A DNA stretch of 52,435 nt from Candidatus Doudnabacteria bacterium (GTDB taxonomy: Bacteria; Patescibacteriota; Doudnabacteria; UBA920; O2-02-FULL-48-8), in assembly GCA_016182875.1 (NCBI GenBank), contig JACPFQ010000002.1, positions 1-52,435 of the forward strand. Reading direction: 5' to 3'. Of this stretch, positions 11,484 through 45,571 are shown piece after piece; within the stretch, counting starts at the first letter, position 1; every line of letters starts with the position of its first letter. The translations under genes and the position numbers were made by a program. The notes beneath the pieces are model-generated. The model was not told the DNA's origin, did no database searches, and worked only from the letters and a program-made list of their open reading frames with translations.

Positions 11484-11810
11484 TTATTCTAACATATCGA
11501 TTTTAGCGGCAAGAATGAAGTCATTCTCGGAAAGCCCGCCTATGGCATGGGTCCAAAGCTCGACTTTGACCCGGCTGTAAGCAACGAACATGTCCGGATG
11601 ATGCCCCTCTTCCTGGGCGAGCAGAGCGACCTTGTTTACAAATCCCATGGTCTCCACGAAATTTTTGAACTTGAACTCCTTCCAGATTTTTTTGTCGTCA
11701 CTGTACCAGGACTTAACCTGGGTTAAGTATTTTTTGACCTCATCCGGCGCCATGGGCGGCATGCCAGATTCGCACGGCACGCATTTACGATGCGTTAGTT
11801 TGGTATTCAT
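11484..11810 (-). CDS. 4a-hydroxytetrahydrobiopterin dehydratase (PCD/DCoH family)
   Basis: 108 aa, whole-length match to the pterin-4a-carbinolamine dehydratase fold. Signature EGHHPDMFVAYSRVKVELWTH contains the catalytic His pair, followed by the conserved GGLSENDFILAAKID end. No aromatic amino-acid hydroxylase is nearby, so the real substrate may be another pterin (for example in molybdopterin metabolism, as proposed for other bacteria). First gene downstream of a structured intergenic element (11827-11944), whose edge is 16 nt from the ATG; no Shine-Dalgarno is visible. Confidence 0.93.
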   Translation of the reverse strand: MNTKLTHRKCVPCESGMPPMAPDEVKKYLTQVKSWYSDDKKIWKEFKFKNFVETMGFVNKVALLAQEEGHHPDMFVAYSRVKVELWTHAIGGLSENDFILAAKIDMLE

Positions 11811-11826
11811 AAAAATTCATGGGCGA

Positions 11827-11944
11827 GGACTAGTCGCAAAAACCAGCTTTCGCAGGGCCGCTCATCGGCCCGAGAACGCAGGTCGCAAAATTTGTGGCTT
11901 GATGCCCAAATTTTGACGACCGGTAGTTTTTGCCGATCTAGTCC
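11827..11944 (-). ncRNA. Structured intergenic element, copy 1 of 3
   Basis: Outer stem GGACTAG/CTAGTCC plus a CGCAAAAAC/GTTTTTGC continuation, enclosing two hairpins: GGGCCG-CTCAT-CGGCCC, and a longer one closing GGTCG/CGACC over CAAAATTT/AAATTTTG. The core (TTCGCAG, GAACGCAGGTCGCAAAAT, TTTTGACGACCGGTAG) recurs at 18620-18752 and 44370-44465. In minus-strand sense it begins 3 nt after the ABC permease stop and ends 16 nt before the next ATG. It could be a structured RNA or a mobile palindrome. Confidence 0.7.
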
Positions 11945-11947
11945 GAG

Positions 11948-12730
11948 CTAATAAGTATTAATTAAGCCTCTGTCGAGTGCTTTTCTGAAACTGCTTCTAA
12001 TATATACTATCGACAAGCTAAGATAAAACAAATTCAAAAGCAAGCTGATCCAAAATTTGTTCGGATCAAAATGCCCAGTATGAATAACCTCCCGCAAGCC
12101 TTCAAAAACATAACTCGTCGGAAGAATCGCGGCAACCTTTTGCGCCCACACCGGCAGAAAAGTCACTGGATAGTAAATGGCCGAAAAAGGGGCAAACAGC
12201 GACGTGAAGGTCCAAGCCATAAACTGAATTTTGGTCCCGTACCGGAAAACTATCCCGGCAATGAAAAATCCCATGAACCAGCCAGTCAGCATAAGCGAAA
12301 AGATGAACGGAATAAGATAAAAGCCATAGCTGAACACGGCTATTTTATACAAAAACAATGCGACCAAGCCAGTGAAAACGAAACCCAACAAGCCCTTGAT
12401 AATCCCGTTGACGACCACCGCAATCAGCCATTCGCTAAGCCTAAGCGGAGAAACAAAAATATTCACCAAGTTATGGCTCCAATATTCTTCCAGCAGGTTG
12501 ACCGAGACTTCGCCCTGAGTTCTGAAAATAATATGGTAAAAAATGATTCCCGAAATAATGATATTAATAATCAGCAAGTTGCCGGCCAAGCCCTCGACGT
12601 ACAAACCAGTCAACCCCCAAACAAACAAGTCAATCGTCGGCCAGTAGAAAGTGTCTGCGGCCCGGTCCGGGTTTCGAAACAATAGATAACTATAGCGCAA
12701 GATTATCGCGTAAACTCTCGACCAGCTCAT
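11948..12730 (-). CDS. ABC-2 type transporter permease
   Basis: 260 aa with about six membrane segments, starting RVYAIILRYSYLLFRNPDRAADTFYWPTID and with a central conserved stretch around MAWTFTSLFAPFSAIYYPVTFLP, both typical of ABC-2 (drug/polysaccharide/daunorubicin-type) permeases. The ATG overlaps the stop of the ATPase gene by 4 nt, so the two form one exporter. Substrate unknown. Confidence 0.92.
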   Translation of the reverse strand: MSWSRVYAIILRYSYLLFRNPDRAADTFYWPTIDLFVWGLTGLYVEGLAGNLLIINIIISGIIFYHIIFRTQGEVSVNLLEEYWSHNLVNIFVSPLRLSEWLIAVVVNGIIKGLLGFVFTGLVALFLYKIAVFSYGFYLIPFIFSLMLTGWFMGFFIAGIVFRYGTKIQFMAWTFTSLFAPFSAIYYPVTFLPVWAQKVAAILPTSYVFEGLREVIHTGHFDPNKFWISLLLNLFYLSLSIVYIRSSFRKALDRGLINTY

Positions 12731-13913: not shown

Positions 13914-15638
13914 ATGCCAAAAAAATATCTAATCGCCATCTTAATTATCGTAGGCTTTCTGCTTTTTGCCAATACCTTCAATAACCAAATGTTTTGGGAC
14001 GACGACGACATCATTCTCAAAAACCAGTTCGTCCATAATTTTGAACTTACAAAATTCTTCACCGAAAACCAGATTGCCGGCTCCGGCCTGGTAAGCAACT
14101 ACTGGCGGCCGTTCATGCTGTCCGTGTTTTCTATAGAGTGGCAAATCTGGAAGGACTGGCCGCCAGGTTATCACTTCGTCAATACGAGTTTGCACATCGC
14201 CAATGCTATTTTGCTCTTTTTTATCCTAAGAAAACTGTTGGCCTCGGTAGAGATTGCTTCGTCGCTACGCTCCTCGCAAATGCGCAATAACGCATCTGCG
14301 AGCGAAGCGAAGCAGTCTATTTCTAAGCTACTAGCTTTTCTTACAAGTCTTGTTTTTCTTATCCACCCCCTGCAAACCGAGGCTGTGGCCTATGTTTCGG
14401 GTCTGGCTGATCCCCTTTCTACATTCTTTATTCTCTTAGGAATACTCTTCTATCTCAAATTCAGAGGTACCTATTTTAGCCATGGCTACTTTAGGTACCG
14501 ATATTACTGGTTAACGATTGGTTGCTATATTGCCGCTGTTTTGTCGAAGGATACGGCCGTCATCATGCCGGCCATGTTAGCGATTACTGATTACTTCTAC
14601 CTTAAGGAGCAATCAATTAAAGCTAGGGTTTGGAAAGTCTTGAAATCCATATGGCCATTCTTTGCTTTGGCCGGCCTTTACTTGATACTGCGGGCCACAA
14701 CCCTAAATTTTAACAACACGTTCAATGTTTACGGAGAAGAAAATGCTTTCACCGAAAGTTTTGGAATTAGGCTGCTGACATTCTTTCGAGCCATGATCCT
14801 ATACATGCAGCTTCTGTTTTGGCCCCGCAGCCTGCATATGGAGCGGACTTTCGATATTCCTCACAGCCTGCTTATTCCTGACGTGCTATTCGGAGGGTTT
14901 GCAGCGATAGCTTTGCTGGCCGCAGCTTTCGCAACGGTCAAAAAATATCCAATTGTCAGCTTCGGGATTCTTTGGTTCTTTGCCCGGCTGTTTCCCAATT
15001 CCAACCTGCTGTTTCCCAACAGCGGCCTTATCTACGAACATTGGATGTACGTGCCGATGATCGGGATTTTTCTAGTTGTGATTTGGTTACTGCTAGAATT
15101 GACGCAAAAATTTAATGATAAAATAAAAAATTCGACTCTAGCTCAGTACGATTACATAAAAATATCGGTCGCTATTTTTATGTTATATCTAATTCCTTTG
15201 TCTGCAAAAACAATTTTCCGCAACAACGATTGGGACAACCCCATCAGATTCTACAACCAAACCCTGCGATACGCGCCGGGCAGTTATCGCGCCATTAACA
15301 ATTTGGGAATGGCCTATGCTGACGGCAAACAACATGACAAAGCAATCGAAGCTTACGAAAGGGCTATCGCGGTTGATCCAAATAACGCCGTAGCTCATCA
15401 CAATCTCGGCAACAGCTATAAGGAGCTTGGAAAGCTCGACTTAGCCGTTGAGCATTTCGAAAAGGCCATAAGCAAGGATTCGGATTTTCTTTTCTCGTAT
15501 AACGCCCTGCTTTCGTTCTACTTAAGCCAAAAGGACTATCAATCAGCTATTGAAGTTCTTGAACGCCTTAAACACAAAAATCCTAATGACCAAACTCTAG
15601 ATAAATTAATAGAACAGTTCAAAAGCCTCCGAAGATAA
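13914..15638 (+). CDS. TMTC/DUF1736-like multi-pass membrane protein with C-terminal TPRs
   Basis: 574 aa. N-terminal part has about ten membrane segments with the motif set of GT-C-type O-mannosyltransferase-like proteins: FWDDDDIILKNQFV (paired acidic residues), NYWRPFMLSVF, GYHFVNTSLHIANAILLF. The last about 140 residues contain tetratricopeptide repeats (NLGMAYADGKQHDKAIEAYERA, HNLGNSYKELGKLDLAVEHF). Likely membrane glycosyltransferase acting on exported protein; the donor is unknown. A 72-nt palindromic element (14251-14322) is inserted in frame between two membrane segments. ATG 13914 is preferred to one 12 nt upstream because of the -10 position. Confidence 0.85.
   Translation: MPKKYLIAILIIVGFLLFANTFNNQMFWDDDDIILKNQFVHNFELTKFFTENQIAGSGLVSNYWRPFMLSVFSIEWQIWKDWPPGYHFVNTSLHIANAILLFFILRKLLASVEIASSLRSSQMRNNASASEAKQSISKLLAFLTSLVFLIHPLQTEAVAYVSGLADPLSTFFILLGILFYLKFRGTYFSHGYFRYRYYWLTIGCYIAAVLSKDTAVIMPAMLAITDYFYLKEQSIKARVWKVLKSIWPFFALAGLYLILRATTLNFNNTFNVYGEENAFTESFGIRLLTFFRAMILYMQLLFWPRSLHMERTFDIPHSLLIPDVLFGGFAAIALLAAAFATVKKYPIVSFGILWFFARLFPNSNLLFPNSGLIYEHWMYVPMIGIFLVVIWLLLELTQKFNDKIKNSTLAQYDYIKISVAIFMLYLIPLSAKTIFRNNDWDNPIRFYNQTLRYAPGSYRAINNLGMAYADGKQHDKAIEAYERAIAVDPNNAVAHHNLGNSYKELGKLDLAVEHFEKAISKDSDFLFSYNALLSFYLSQKDYQSAIEVLERLKHKNPNDQTLDKLIEQFKSLRR
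14251..14322. repeat. Family A palindrome inserted in frame in the TMTC-like gene
   Basis: Arms AGATTGCTTCG (5') and CGAAGCAGTCT (3'), with inner arms CGCTCCTCGCAAATGCG and CGCATCTGCGAGCG. It adds about 24 residues (EIASSLRSSQMR...). Relatives: 16099-16245, 20844-20910, 37462-37525. Confidence 0.85.
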
Positions 15639-18619: not shown

Positions 18620-18752
18620 GTGAGTGAAGGCGCATCCGAAAAACTAGCTTTCGCAGATCGGCTCATCCGATCGAGAACGCAGGTCGCAAAATTTGCGGCT
18701 TCCATGCCCAAATTTTGACGACCGGTAGTTTTTCGGGATGTGCCAAACTCAC
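18620..18752 (-). ncRNA. Structured intergenic element, copy 2 of 3
   Basis: Long outer stem (GTGAGT/ACTCAC, GGC/GCC, CATCCGAAAAACT with AGTTTTTCGGGATG), then hairpins GATCGG-CTCAT-CCGATC and GGTCG/CGACC over AAAATTT/AAATTTT. Core letters match copies 1 and 3 while the outer stem and first hairpin differ by paired changes. The outermost stem overlaps the stop codon of the DUF6496 gene. Confidence 0.7.
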
Positions 18753-19057: not shown

Positions 19058-19058
19058 T

Positions 19059-19230
19059 GGCTGGGGAGGTAGGATTCTTCAGCGCTCGCTGAGGCTCGCG
19101 CGGACTGGGTTGCGCCGGAAGCTACGTTTGCTCGCTTTCGTCGATCATTCGGCAGCGTCGCCCACCGACTTGCCTCACTTCAACCCGTTCGAATCCTACG
19201 TTTATGTTCTTGGCTGGGGAGGTAGGATTC
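19059..19230. repeat. Duplicated tRNA-Gln 3' end flanking a palindromic stretch
   Basis: TGGCTGGGGAGGTAGGATTC occurs at 19211-19230 (the 3' end of the tRNA gene) and again exactly at 19059-19078. An inverted piece (GAATCCTAC) lies at about 19190-19198. The 130-nt insert between is GC-rich and forms a large imperfect hairpin. This resembles an att-site duplication or repeat insertion at a tRNA end. Confidence 0.7.
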
Positions 19231-19285
19231 GAACCTACGGATGACGGATTCAGAGTCCGTTGCCTTACCGCTTGGCTACTCCCCA
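19211..19285 (-). tRNA. tRNA-Gln (anticodon CTG)
   Basis: 75 nt with encoded CCA. The acceptor TGGGGAG pairs with CTCCCCA; the anticodon stem ACGGA/TCCGT closes loop CTCTGAA (anticodon CTG); the T-arm is GTAGG-TTCGAAT-CCTAC. Confidence 0.95.
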
Positions 19286-20806: not shown

Positions 20807-20843
20807 GCTAGAGCTTTTGAAGCTTTTTTAATTTGTAAATAAC

Positions 20844-20910
20844 GTCATCGCGAGCGAAGCGTGGCGATCTCTTCCAGAGATTGCTTCGTCGTTTTACTTC
20901 TCGCAATGAC
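20844..20910. repeat. Family A palindrome in the hppA leader
   Basis: GTCATCGCGAG...CTCGCAATGAC outer arms with GATCTC/GAGATTGC inside. It lies between the promoter and the AAAGGA site, so the mRNA leader would fold into a long hairpin. Confidence 0.8.
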
Positions 20911-23568: not shown

Positions 23569-24669
23569 TTACTCTACTTTATCAATTATCCCGCCGCCAA
23601 GTAATTCTTCGTCTTGATAAATCACAGCTGCCTGACCCGGCGTAATTGCCCTTTGCGGCTGATCAAATATTATTCGCAGTTTGTCATTGTCATCGTCATT
23701 GTCAATAGTCGCATCAAAATCCGGATGATGATAGCGAATAGACACACCCGCGTTCAAAGGGAACTTAGGAGCTTTGTCAGTCCACGAAACATCCGTGACT
23801 GTGAATTCTTTCTTCCAAAGCTTGGGGTCATTCTGGTCATTGGTCACCAATAGCCGGTTTGAGTCAAAATCCTTACTCGCCACATAATATGGCCCGCTTC
23901 CGCCAATACCGATGCCCTCGCGCTGGCCAATCGTGTAGTATGGCAACCCCTGATGCATTCCCAGAATCTGGCCCGAAGTGGTGACTACTTCCCCCGCTTC
24001 GGCTTTGATTTTTTCCTTGAGAAACTCGCGGACGTTGATTTTGCCGATAAAGCAAATCCCCTGCGAATCTTTTTTGGCATGATTAGGCAGGCCAAACTCT
24101 TTCGCCATTTCTCTCACTTCTGACTTCTTATATTCGCCGATCGGAAACAAGACCTTGGAAAGCTGTTCCTGCTTCAGAGTATACAAAAAGTAACTCTGGT
24201 CTTTCGCCGGATCTGCTCCTTTCAGTAATCGGTATGATATTTTGACTTTTAAATTGTCATTTTGACTTTTGATTTTTGACTTTTGAATTCTAGCGTAGTG
24301 CCCCGTAGCAACAAAATTCGCGCCCAAAGACAAAGCTTTGTCCAAAAAAAACTTGAACTTAATCTCGCTGTTGCACATCACATCCGGGTTTGGCGTCCTA
24401 CCCGCCTTGTATTCCCGCAAAAAATACTCGACAACCTTTTCGTAATATTCTTTTTCGAAGTTCCAGACGTAGAAGGGTATATCCAAAAGCTTGGCCACCT
24501 TGCGGGCGTCCTCGGCATCTTCGGCCCAAGTGCAGCCATAATGCCCAAAGTCCTCGCTCCAGTTCTTCATAAACACGCCAATAACGTCAAAACCTTGCTT
24601 TGCAAGCATTGCCGCGCTGACCGAGGAATCCACTCCTCCGCTCATGCCGACAACAACTTTTCTCTTCAT
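23569..24669 (-). CDS. mnmA: tRNA-specific 2-thiouridylase
   Basis: 366 aa; ATP-dependent thiolation of U34 in tRNA-Lys/Glu/Gln. The PP-loop SGGVDSS is at residues 10-16, and the catalytic Cys pair is in NPDVMCN (about 100) and QGICFIG (about 205). Between about residues 125 and 145 an AT-rich micro-repeat adds RIQKSKIKSQNDNLKVKISY, a surface-loop expansion. The ATG overlaps the TGA of the upstream transposase gene (ATGA), so its original upstream region has probably been replaced by that insertion. Confidence 0.97.
   Translation of the reverse strand: MKRKVVVGMSGGVDSSVSAAMLAKQGFDVIGVFMKNWSEDFGHYGCTWAEDAEDARKVAKLLDIPFYVWNFEKEYYEKVVEYFLREYKAGRTPNPDVMCNSEIKFKFFLDKALSLGANFVATGHYARIQKSKIKSQNDNLKVKISYRLLKGADPAKDQSYFLYTLKQEQLSKVLFPIGEYKKSEVREMAKEFGLPNHAKKDSQGICFIGKINVREFLKEKIKAEAGEVVTTSGQILGMHQGLPYYTIGQREGIGIGGSGPYYVASKDFDSNRLLVTNDQNDPKLWKKEFTVTDVSWTDKAPKFPLNAGVSIRYHHPDFDATIDNDDDNDKLRIIFDQPQRAITPGQAAVIYQDEELLGGGIIDKVE
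24236..24297. repeat. AT-rich micro-repeat in frame in mnmA
   Basis: Several TTTTGACTTTTGA-type units in a row, the same type as 9026-9060. Read in frame. Confidence 0.75.
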
Positions 24670-25310
24670 GCAAAGGGCACCTTTGCAACTGAGTCTATTA
24701 GCATAGAATCGAGTTCTTTTCTTAGTTTAATTGCATCTAAACTCTGGGTCGTAAATTTAGGAAATTCTTGGATCGTTTTAAATTGATTCAATATTATATC
24801 GCTTTCACATGAAATATAACCATCCTTTTTTAAATAAAACATATAACTGCTCCAGGGATAGGTTTCAGGAGTCTTAGAAATGCCTGCGACTGTGGGATTT
24901 TGATGGATGTATGCGGAGAGCCAAAGTAGATAAGAGTCGTCATCAATTAAAACTTGTTTAAATTGATCTTGAAATACGTGACCAACGCGATCATATTTCT
25001 TGTTAAAATATTTTGAATAACTAGAACATAATTTCAAAATAAGCTTACTTGTCGGAATGTTACCATTTTGCTTAATCAAAATATGAAAATGATTTGGCAT
25101 TAAACAATACGCAATTAGTGAGAAGGTATTTGCCGGCAATTTTCTTATTCTTGATGTTGGATTGTCTTCTGGGTATAAATTTTGTCTTAGACGAAGTAAG
25201 AAGAATTTATAATCCTCTGGGTCAATAAAAATATTATTTTTGGCATTGCCCCTATTATAAATATGATAATACGCTCCAGCACCAAATTCTTTGTAATCAC
25301 GAATACCCAT
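24666..25310 (-). CDS. REP-associated tyrosine transposase (RAYT, Y1/HUH family)
   Basis: 214-aa single-strand DNA transposase-like protein. The HUH motif is NHFHILI (about residue 73), preceded by YHIYNRGNAKNNIF and followed by the presumed catalytic Tyr in YSKYFNKKYDRVGHVFQ. RAYTs are usually single copy and act on REP palindromes. Here 19-bp direct repeats CAAAGGGCACCTTTGCAAC flank the unit (24671-24689 and 25346-25364), with an extra inverted copy at 25325-25341. The last six codons and TGA are made by the repeat. It sits between the nucleotidyltransferase and mnmA in an otherwise coupled operon. Confidence 0.92.
   Translation of the reverse strand: MGIRDYKEFGAGAYYHIYNRGNAKNNIFIDPEDYKFFLLRLRQNLYPEDNPTSRIRKLPANTFSLIAYCLMPNHFHILIKQNGNIPTSKLILKLCSSYSKYFNKKYDRVGHVFQDQFKQVLIDDDSYLLWLSAYIHQNPTVAGISKTPETYPWSSYMFYLKKDGYISCESDIILNQFKTIQEFPKFTTQSLDAIKLRKELDSMLIDSVAKVPFA
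24669..24687. repeat. REP-like palindrome, mnmA side
   Basis: TGCAAAGG-GCA-CCTTTGCA. Encodes the transposase C-terminus and touches the mnmA ATG. Confidence 0.85.
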
Positions 25311-44354: not shown

Positions 44355-44369
44355 ACTTATTTTTAGCGA

Positions 44370-44465
44370 GGTACTTTGCAAAACTAGCTTGCGCAGCGCG
44401 ACGGCGCGAGCACGCAGGTCGCAAAATCAGCAGATTTTGACGACCGGTAGTTTTGCAAATGTACC
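44370..44465 (-). ncRNA. Structured intergenic element, copy 3 of 3
   Basis: Outer GGTAC/GTACC with TTGCAAAACTA/TAGTTTTGCAAA, a short CGCG-type hairpin, and GGTCG/CGACC over CAAAATC/GATTTTG. Core matches copies 1 and 2. In minus-strand sense it begins 8 nt after the PLD stop and ends 15 nt before the next ATG. Confidence 0.7.
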
Positions 44466-44473
44466 GAGCGACC

Positions 44474-45571
44474 TCACATGAAGTTGTGCGCCGGCCAGGT
44501 CAACAGCTCCAGAAACTTCTGCTTGAGCGGCCGCTTGACCCATTCAAACAGTTTGATTTCCTTGGCCATCTGTAAGTCAGACAAAAATTGCTGTTTTAAT
44601 CGAGCGTTGAATTCCAAGCTGCTGCTTATGATGTTCGCTTCATAGCAAAACCAGAAGCTCAAATTGTCGAGGTTGGCGCTGCCGACCGTGCCCCACCTGC
44701 CGTCGACGACGCCGGTTTTGGCATGAAGTAAACTGCCCTGGTATCTGAAAATCCGAATCCCCGCTGCAAGCGCCAATCCGAAGTAAGAAGCGGCTGCCAT
44801 ATCAAGCGACAAATGGTCAGAGGTCACGGGCACGAGCAGTCGCACATCCACTCCTCTTTTGGCAGCCTTTCGCAGTGATGAAAAAAACCGCAAGTCCGGC
44901 ACGAAGTAGGGTGTGGTCAGGTAAATATAATTTTTTGCATTCCTTACGGCTTGAATGAATGCATCACGCAAATATCGCTTGCGGTACTTAAACGACCGGA
45001 AGGTTCGCAAATAAGGCGAGCTTGCCAAAAATTTAAATTCTGAGAAGTTCGAATTAAGGTTCTGAATGACCGTGAACCGCCTCTTCCTGGCGATTTCCAG
45101 CATTCGCGCAAACACCCGTTCCATCTCATGGACTATCGGTCCGGTAACCCGAACATTTGTATCGCGCCAGGTGCTCATCGCACCGCTAATACCTAAGCCT
45201 CCAGTATGCCCAATTTTCCCATCGACTACGAGGATTTTTTTATGGTCGCGGAAAAACCAGGAAGTAAAGTTATGAAGCCGCCAGGGACTTATGGGATTGA
45301 AGAAGAAAACCTGGATCCCGGCTTCAGAGAGGGTCCGTGCGACATCGGAGCTGTAAAAGTCCCTGCTCCCGACCGTATCGAGAATCATCCGCACGCGCAC
45401 CCCGTCTTTGGCCTTTCTTAAGAACAAGTCAACAAATTTTTTCCCGATCTCGTCAAAATGAAAGATATACTGGTCCAAGTCAATCGAGCCTGCGGCATTT
45501 TGGCAGTCCGAAAACATCGCTTCCAGGGCAGACGGCGCGTCCGTATAAAATTGCCAAGTGGTTTCGCTCAT
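44474..45571 (-). CDS. Phospholipase D-like / cardiolipin synthase-like protein
   Basis: 365 aa with two HKD motifs: HKKILVVDGKIGHTGG (about residue 135) and HAKTGVVDGRWGTVGSAN (about 285). Lacks the N-terminal membrane helices of ClsA, so resembles ClsB/YbhO-like enzymes. Probably phosphatidyl transfer at the membrane. Preceded by the cytidylyltransferase gene (5-nt gap). Confidence 0.92.
   Translation of the reverse strand: MSETTWQFYTDAPSALEAMFSDCQNAAGSIDLDQYIFHFDEIGKKFVDLFLRKAKDGVRVRMILDTVGSRDFYSSDVARTLSEAGIQVFFFNPISPWRLHNFTSWFFRDHKKILVVDGKIGHTGGLGISGAMSTWRDTNVRVTGPIVHEMERVFARMLEIARKRRFTVIQNLNSNFSEFKFLASSPYLRTFRSFKYRKRYLRDAFIQAVRNAKNYIYLTTPYFVPDLRFFSSLRKAAKRGVDVRLLVPVTSDHLSLDMAAASYFGLALAAGIRIFRYQGSLLHAKTGVVDGRWGTVGSANLDNLSFWFCYEANIISSSLEFNARLKQQFLSDLQMAKEIKLFEWVKRPLKQKFLELLTWPAHNFM

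Follow-up and report, generated by a model that had tools for sequence, protein, structure and literature searches.

Stop-codon-abutting palindromes with a three-way-junction fold in Candidatus Doudnabacteria and other Patescibacteria: an apparently unreported family of small, probably mobile elements

We analyzed a 52,435-nt stretch of a Candidatus Doudnabacteria contig (hereafter the window) and found that three structured repeats in it belong to a family, apparently not reported before, of what seem to be small mobile hairpins in Ca. Doudnabacteria and other Patescibacteria, and not an ordinary RNA of gene control. With moderate confidence, we interpret these repeats as non-autonomous, REP/RPE-like mobile palindromic DNA elements of Patescibacteria with a three-way-junction fold. 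This interpretation draws on their dispersal, the turnover of their sites and one empty site, subfamily swaps, nested and modular copies, and a copy lying in frame in mnmA. It draws also on a 38:9 wobble asymmetry, a lack of promoter or U-tract enrichment, a predominance of two-sided stem changes and a low share of G-U pairs, and on the patchy recurrence of the element in eight other families of the phylum. A literature search, which covered part of the literature, returned no earlier description of these repeats.

An earlier note on this DNA had reported three copies with a common core, and all three are present in the same orientation (Table 1), with boundaries, here those of a covariance model, that fall a few bases from the ones first given. 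The note's account of their extent and number held only in part: the three copies are real, but the GCGAG and CGAGC ends are conserved as well, and confident copies in the genome number at least 14. None of 200 dinucleotide shuffles matched the fold energy of any window copy. As the note had described, each copy lies close to a stop codon: copy 1 shares one base with the upstream TAG (11948-11950), the TGA of the 64-aa DUF6496 gene on the minus strand comes directly after copy 2, and a TGA at 44474-44476 lies 4 nt from copy 3. The next minus-strand ATG follows 12 nt past copy 1 (11810) and 11 nt past copy 3 (44354), and reading the sequence of these two intervals revealed no Shine-Dalgarno-like sequence, again in agreement with the note.

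Table 1. Element copies in the window and the genes that adjoin them. Fold z-scores are against dinucleotide shuffles.
Feature	Position	Strand	Details
Element copy 1 (subfamily 1)	11823..11948	+	Model R1 120.7 bits; fold z -7.5 RNA, -8.5 DNA
Copy 1 stems	P1 ~11827-11844 with 11925-11944; P2 ~11846-11878; P3 ~11880-11921		
Copy 1 termini			GCGAG and CGAGC with tandem G-A
Element copy 2 (subfamily 1)	18624..18748	+	Model R1 120.4 bits; fold z -8.2 RNA, -8.0 DNA
Copy 2 outer arms GTGAG/CTCAC	18620-18624 and 18748-18752		Reach into the DUF6496 stop codon
Element copy 3 (subfamily 1)	44366..44469	+	Model R1 103.3 bits; fold z -7.0 RNA, -7.5 DNA
Copy 3 arms			P2 short, loop GACG; P3 short, loop CAGCAG
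ABC-2 type transporter membrane protein, 260 aa	11948..12730	-	Stop abuts copy 1; Pfam PF01061 E 7.9e-10
Pterin-4a-carbinolamine dehydratase	11484..11810	-	Same-strand gene downstream of copy 1; Pfam PF01329 E 9.3e-33
DUF6496 protein, 64 aa	18749..18943	-	Stop abuts copy 2; Pfam PF20106 E 1.5e-24
Phospholipase-D-like protein, 365 aa	44474..45571	-	Stop 4 nt from copy 3; Pfam PF13091 E 3.1e-38

The window contains several other repeats. A perfect 71-nt inverted repeat with no spacer occupies the contig start (1-142) and looks like an assembly fold-back at the contig end. A 20-nt exact direct repeat (19058-19077 and 19211-19230), one copy of which forms the 3' end of a tRNA-Gln gene (19211-19285, minus strand), resembles an integration attachment-site scar. 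A pair of long inverted repeats 21 kb apart (17762-17803/38827-38868 and 17807-17834/38778-38805; 42 nt, 93%) belongs to a different repeat family, and a further two-copy family lies at 14249-14321 and 20838-20906 (GCGAGCGAAGCG... and AGAGATTGCTTCGTCG...).

Each copy of the element, roughly 95-145 bp in size, forms a three-way junction made of a long P1 stem, a P2 stem with an internal GCA/GA loop, and a P3 stem. The GCGAG and CGAGC ends can pair through a G-C and a C-G pair followed by tandem G-A/A-G, a terminal motif retained in 98 of 112 copies, and tandem G-A motifs are also found in P2. The bases flanking the ends are an A before and a G after in 67 copies. Of about 102 copies scored, only 38 have an internal GGTAG at the P3/P1 junction, where it lies in a stem. 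The paired stem differences that the earlier note had pointed out are borne out by the nine copies first found in the source genome, in which 19 of 46 pairs show two-sided changes and 45 alignment cells are changed on both sides, versus 15.4 when shuffled (none of 500 shuffles reached the observed value). Across 54 diverse copies, we detected two-sided changes at 45 of 46 pairs and 622 two-sided cells, versus 160 when shuffled and at most 107 in slid controls; this alignment was fitted to the structure, a bias in its favor, and unfitted alignments of nine and eight copies agree with it. Comparison of the closest copy pairs revealed 107 two-sided stem changes versus 23 one-sided G-U and 36 one-sided mismatch changes, and G-U pairs make up 2.4% of standard pairs, versus 4.8% for tRNAs in the same loci. 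The scarcity of G-U pairs and the dominance of two-sided changes suggest a DNA-level process or the exchange of stems as blocks, and not stepwise compensation in an RNA. The covariation is as strong as in the structured RNA families of Rfam, yet Rfam 15 gave no match to the window at the gathering threshold and nothing credible at relaxed thresholds, in keeping with the note's statement that no named family fits.

The note had also proposed building a covariance model and searching related genomes. A model built from nine copies (R1) detects 14 confident copies in the 0.79 Mb source genome, and copies are present in all 14 genomes of the family, at 1-17 per genome; R1 gave no hits in the 46 genomes that represented other families within the order and phylum. 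We recognized a second subfamily at orthologous sites, with the core GAAT / CTTAG / CCGTC, and a model of it (R2) found no subfamily 2 outside the family in the same genome sample. A broad model (R3), run on 380 genomes chosen to sample the phylum evenly, identified relatives in eight further Patescibacteria families, three of which have multiple copies; these copy numbers are lower bounds because the search used strict filters. The two weakest of these families (G119 and G371) reach an E-value of only ~1e-4 per genome. The locus L241 has an element match at 1316-1213. Among public contigs, the core pattern matches two, both from one Candidatus Doudnabacteria genome. Phage and plasmid records contained no match and IMG/VR contained none by exact pattern, and on these grounds we rejected carriage by phages or plasmids.

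Which strand is constrained can be read from the P1 stem. Along the GCGAG-to-CGAGC strand, P1 contains 38 isolated G-T pairs and 9 isolated A-C mismatches (p 2.5e-5, an optimistic value because the counts are drawn from related copies), an asymmetry indicating that the strand with protected pairing is the one lying opposite the mRNA of the upstream gene. As indirect evidence on transcription, a promoter scan gave no promoter-like enrichment upstream of the elements, and T runs after them are in no clear excess (7 vs 5.7 and 8 vs 5.6 in the two directions); these results led us to reject a sigma-70-like promoter or intrinsic terminator of the element's own. The earlier note had favored a functional RNA, and a structured RNA made from the GCGAG-to-CGAGC strand, acting in trans or antisense at gene 3' ends and with its copies kept in concert, would fit the extreme covariation, the conserved non-canonical G-A motifs, the GACG loop of P2 and CAGCAG loop of P3 that recur across families of the phylum, the singling out of one strand by the wobble asymmetry, and the several sites common to genomes G000 and G001. 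Core conservation and covariation stand from that proposal, but nothing shows RNA as the working form: most copies have the marked strand antisense to the gene they abut, the promoter-like enrichment and U-tract are both absent, the G-U share is low, and sites vary between genera along with copy number. We regard a functional RNA as rather unlikely.

The position of the elements is strongly biased with respect to gene ends. In simple ORF calls, whose cut-off missed short genes (the gene at copy 2 among them), 61 copies are flanked on the 3' side by an antisense gene, and in 42 of these the element's 3' end lies within 6 nt of the stop codon, when uniform placement within the same gaps predicts 11.6. 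Where the other side leaves 40 nt or more free, 26 of 43 lie within 6 nt (2.1 expected). No bias is seen in the mirror arrangement (4 of 40 copies, 5.5 expected). The 3' ends of tRNAs lie ~6 nt from the element. The abutted genes include fusA, tuf, rplC, groEL, map and ribonucleotide reductase; fusA, tuf, rplC, groEL and tRNAs are usually highly expressed. The earlier note had stated that a lack of covariation above background in an enlarged alignment, or random placement relative to stop codons, would argue for a passive repeat; the covariation we observe is far above background, and the placement is non-random.

The close abutment to stop codons and tRNA 3' ends, and the presence of ribosomal and translation operons among the genes concerned, could reflect an element that acts after the stop codon in the gene's own mRNA or tRNA transcript, as a 3' barrier, processing site or terminator, much as some REPs stabilize upstream mRNA. 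We consider this improbable. In the very copies that abut an antisense gene, P1 contains 25 G-T pairs vs 7 A-C mismatches, and pairing is therefore selected on the other strand; moreover, the reverse complement is not followed by a U-tract, many copies lie between co-directional genes, and the orthologous genes of sister genera manage without the element. At three ribonucleotide reductase 3' ends (L147, L100 and L127, in G000, G006 and G010), the terminal codons pair with an inverted copy beyond the element, with compensated differences across the three genera. Outer arms derived from the gene lengthen the stem in 8 copies, these reductase ends among them, versus 1.0 expected at the chosen score, and we rejected such extension as a general feature since it is genuine at few sites only.

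Occupancy of individual sites changes between genomes. The map site is unoccupied in the same-genus genome G001, and this single empty site differs by point changes, with no clean target-site duplication. In the str-S10 operon, compared across 12 genomes, occupancy differs among genera: G006-G009 and G012 have a copy at the fusA 3' end, G000 and G001 alone carry copies at the tuf and rplC ends, and none was detected anywhere in this region in G002-G005 and G011. The rplC, tuf and ribonucleotide reductase sites carry subfamily 1 in G000 and subfamily 2 in G001, with an equal stop-side junction at rplC and differences of several bases at tuf and nrdJ, and the site of window copy 2 has an orthologous copy in G001 with a different P1. 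Five of six examined G000 sites are also filled in G001, one of them by a degenerate chimera, and this sharing could mean a conserved function and counts against mobility.

The relationships among copies show further exchange. For 53 of 112 copies the nearest neighbor is another copy from the same genome (10.2 expected), and copies are homogenized within genomes. L098:2431 and L103:2430 have an identical core and unrelated P1 stems, a pattern indicating that copies can exchange stems as modules, and at L098:2431, L103 and L109 newer copies adjoin the 3' half of older ones. In a genome of another Patescibacteria family (G204; L240, 1501-1635), the reverse complement of the element lies in frame inside mnmA, a single case and no general habit. 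Separately, the copies at L058:2536-2631 and L059:2413-2508 and at the G001 site orthologous to copy 1 are chimeras that carry a longer GC-rich repeat (GGCGACGGGTG...GGGGACCCC...) in place of P3, and a CGACGGGT/ACCCGTCG motif flanks further copies in this genus.

Integron attC sites are folded single-strand sites positioned just after a stop codon, with the active strand opposite the gene. That the elements are attC-like sites for site-specific recombination of a folded single strand, at which resident elements are exchanged at fixed places, is very unlikely: the shared position and strand, the strand-specific fold, and the different subfamilies held at G000 and G001 gene ends with an equal rplC junction are in its favor, but the elements form no cassette arrays, end in GCGAG/CGAGC without the conserved RYYYAAC/GTTRRRY boxes, adopt another fold, and have tuf and nrdJ junctions that differ by several bases.

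A mobile palindrome, which the earlier note had named as its main alternative, fits better, with the addition of a conserved three-way-junction core. Among known palindromic repeats, REPs are simple hairpins of 20-40 bp that end in a GTAG or CGTC tag left unpaired, and RPEs (Rickettsia palindromic elements) are ~100-150 bp palindromic repeats of reduced genomes that sometimes lie in frame within genes. REPs are palindromes dispersed outside genes; they adjoin or overlap the ends of ORFs and can provide the stop codon, and the RPE of R. conorii is reported to have a terminal CGTC (PMC3733652). REPs are recognized strand-specifically as folded single-stranded DNA and conserve their stem mismatches, and integron sites are grouped with such folded-strand substrates (PMC8266576). 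Our element is REP-like as a dispersed extragenic palindrome with strand-specific fold features, but it differs in its size, its three-way junction and its tandem G-A ends, and we rejected strict REP membership because it lacks the terminal GTAG/CGTC tag. It shares with RPEs the ability to lie in frame in a protein gene, and differs in ending without CGTC and in its antisense bias toward stop codons. A classical MITE would have terminal inverted repeats that match the ends of a transposase gene, and a target-site duplication; we found no parent transposon, and the single empty site shows no clear duplication.

The window contains a lone IS200-like Y1 transposase gene (24666-25310, minus strand; PF01797 E 3.5e-10). 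Y1 transposases of this family are encoded in 7 of the 14 family genomes, including the source genome; PF01797 was not found in the copy-rich G001 and G006, and five other Y1 loci have no element nearby. REPs are associated with Y1 tyrosine transposases (TnpA-REP, or RAYT). Because only half of the family genomes here encode a Y1 transposase, we rejected the IS200-like transposase as an obligatory partner, as we did a reverse transcriptase, present in 5 of 14. These frequencies and the lack of a clean target-site duplication count against mobility. The same is true of strand orientation in the one-contig genome G005: the folded strand is on the inferred leading-strand template in 10 of 10 copies, a result that is suggestive only, coming from the genome less two sampled stretches and with an origin inferred from skew. 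IS608 uses a lagging-strand-template mechanism, and the G005 orientation is opposite to what an IS608-like process predicts.

If the elements are mobile palindromes, the folded strand would be recognized as single-stranded DNA by a trans-acting enzyme, which would copy or move it with a preference for the 3' ends of genes, including fusA, tuf, rplC, groEL and tRNAs. Copies that spare genes would persist, and so would settle between a stop codon and the next gene. More tentatively, folded-strand elements of this kind, serving mobility or recombination, may form a class across Patescibacteria that has not been described before; it would be marked by tandem sheared G-A pairs that close a three-way junction, specific antisense integration at gene 3' ends, subfamily replacement at the same sites, and a putative enzyme.

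The genomes of Patescibacteria are very small, and few mobile elements are known from them. If our interpretation is true, folded elements that lodge at stop codons in core operons throughout the phylum would be a new player in Patescibacteria genome evolution. With the protected strand antisense to the neighboring mRNA, they would also make it unusually easy to tell selection on a palindrome at the RNA level from selection at the DNA level.
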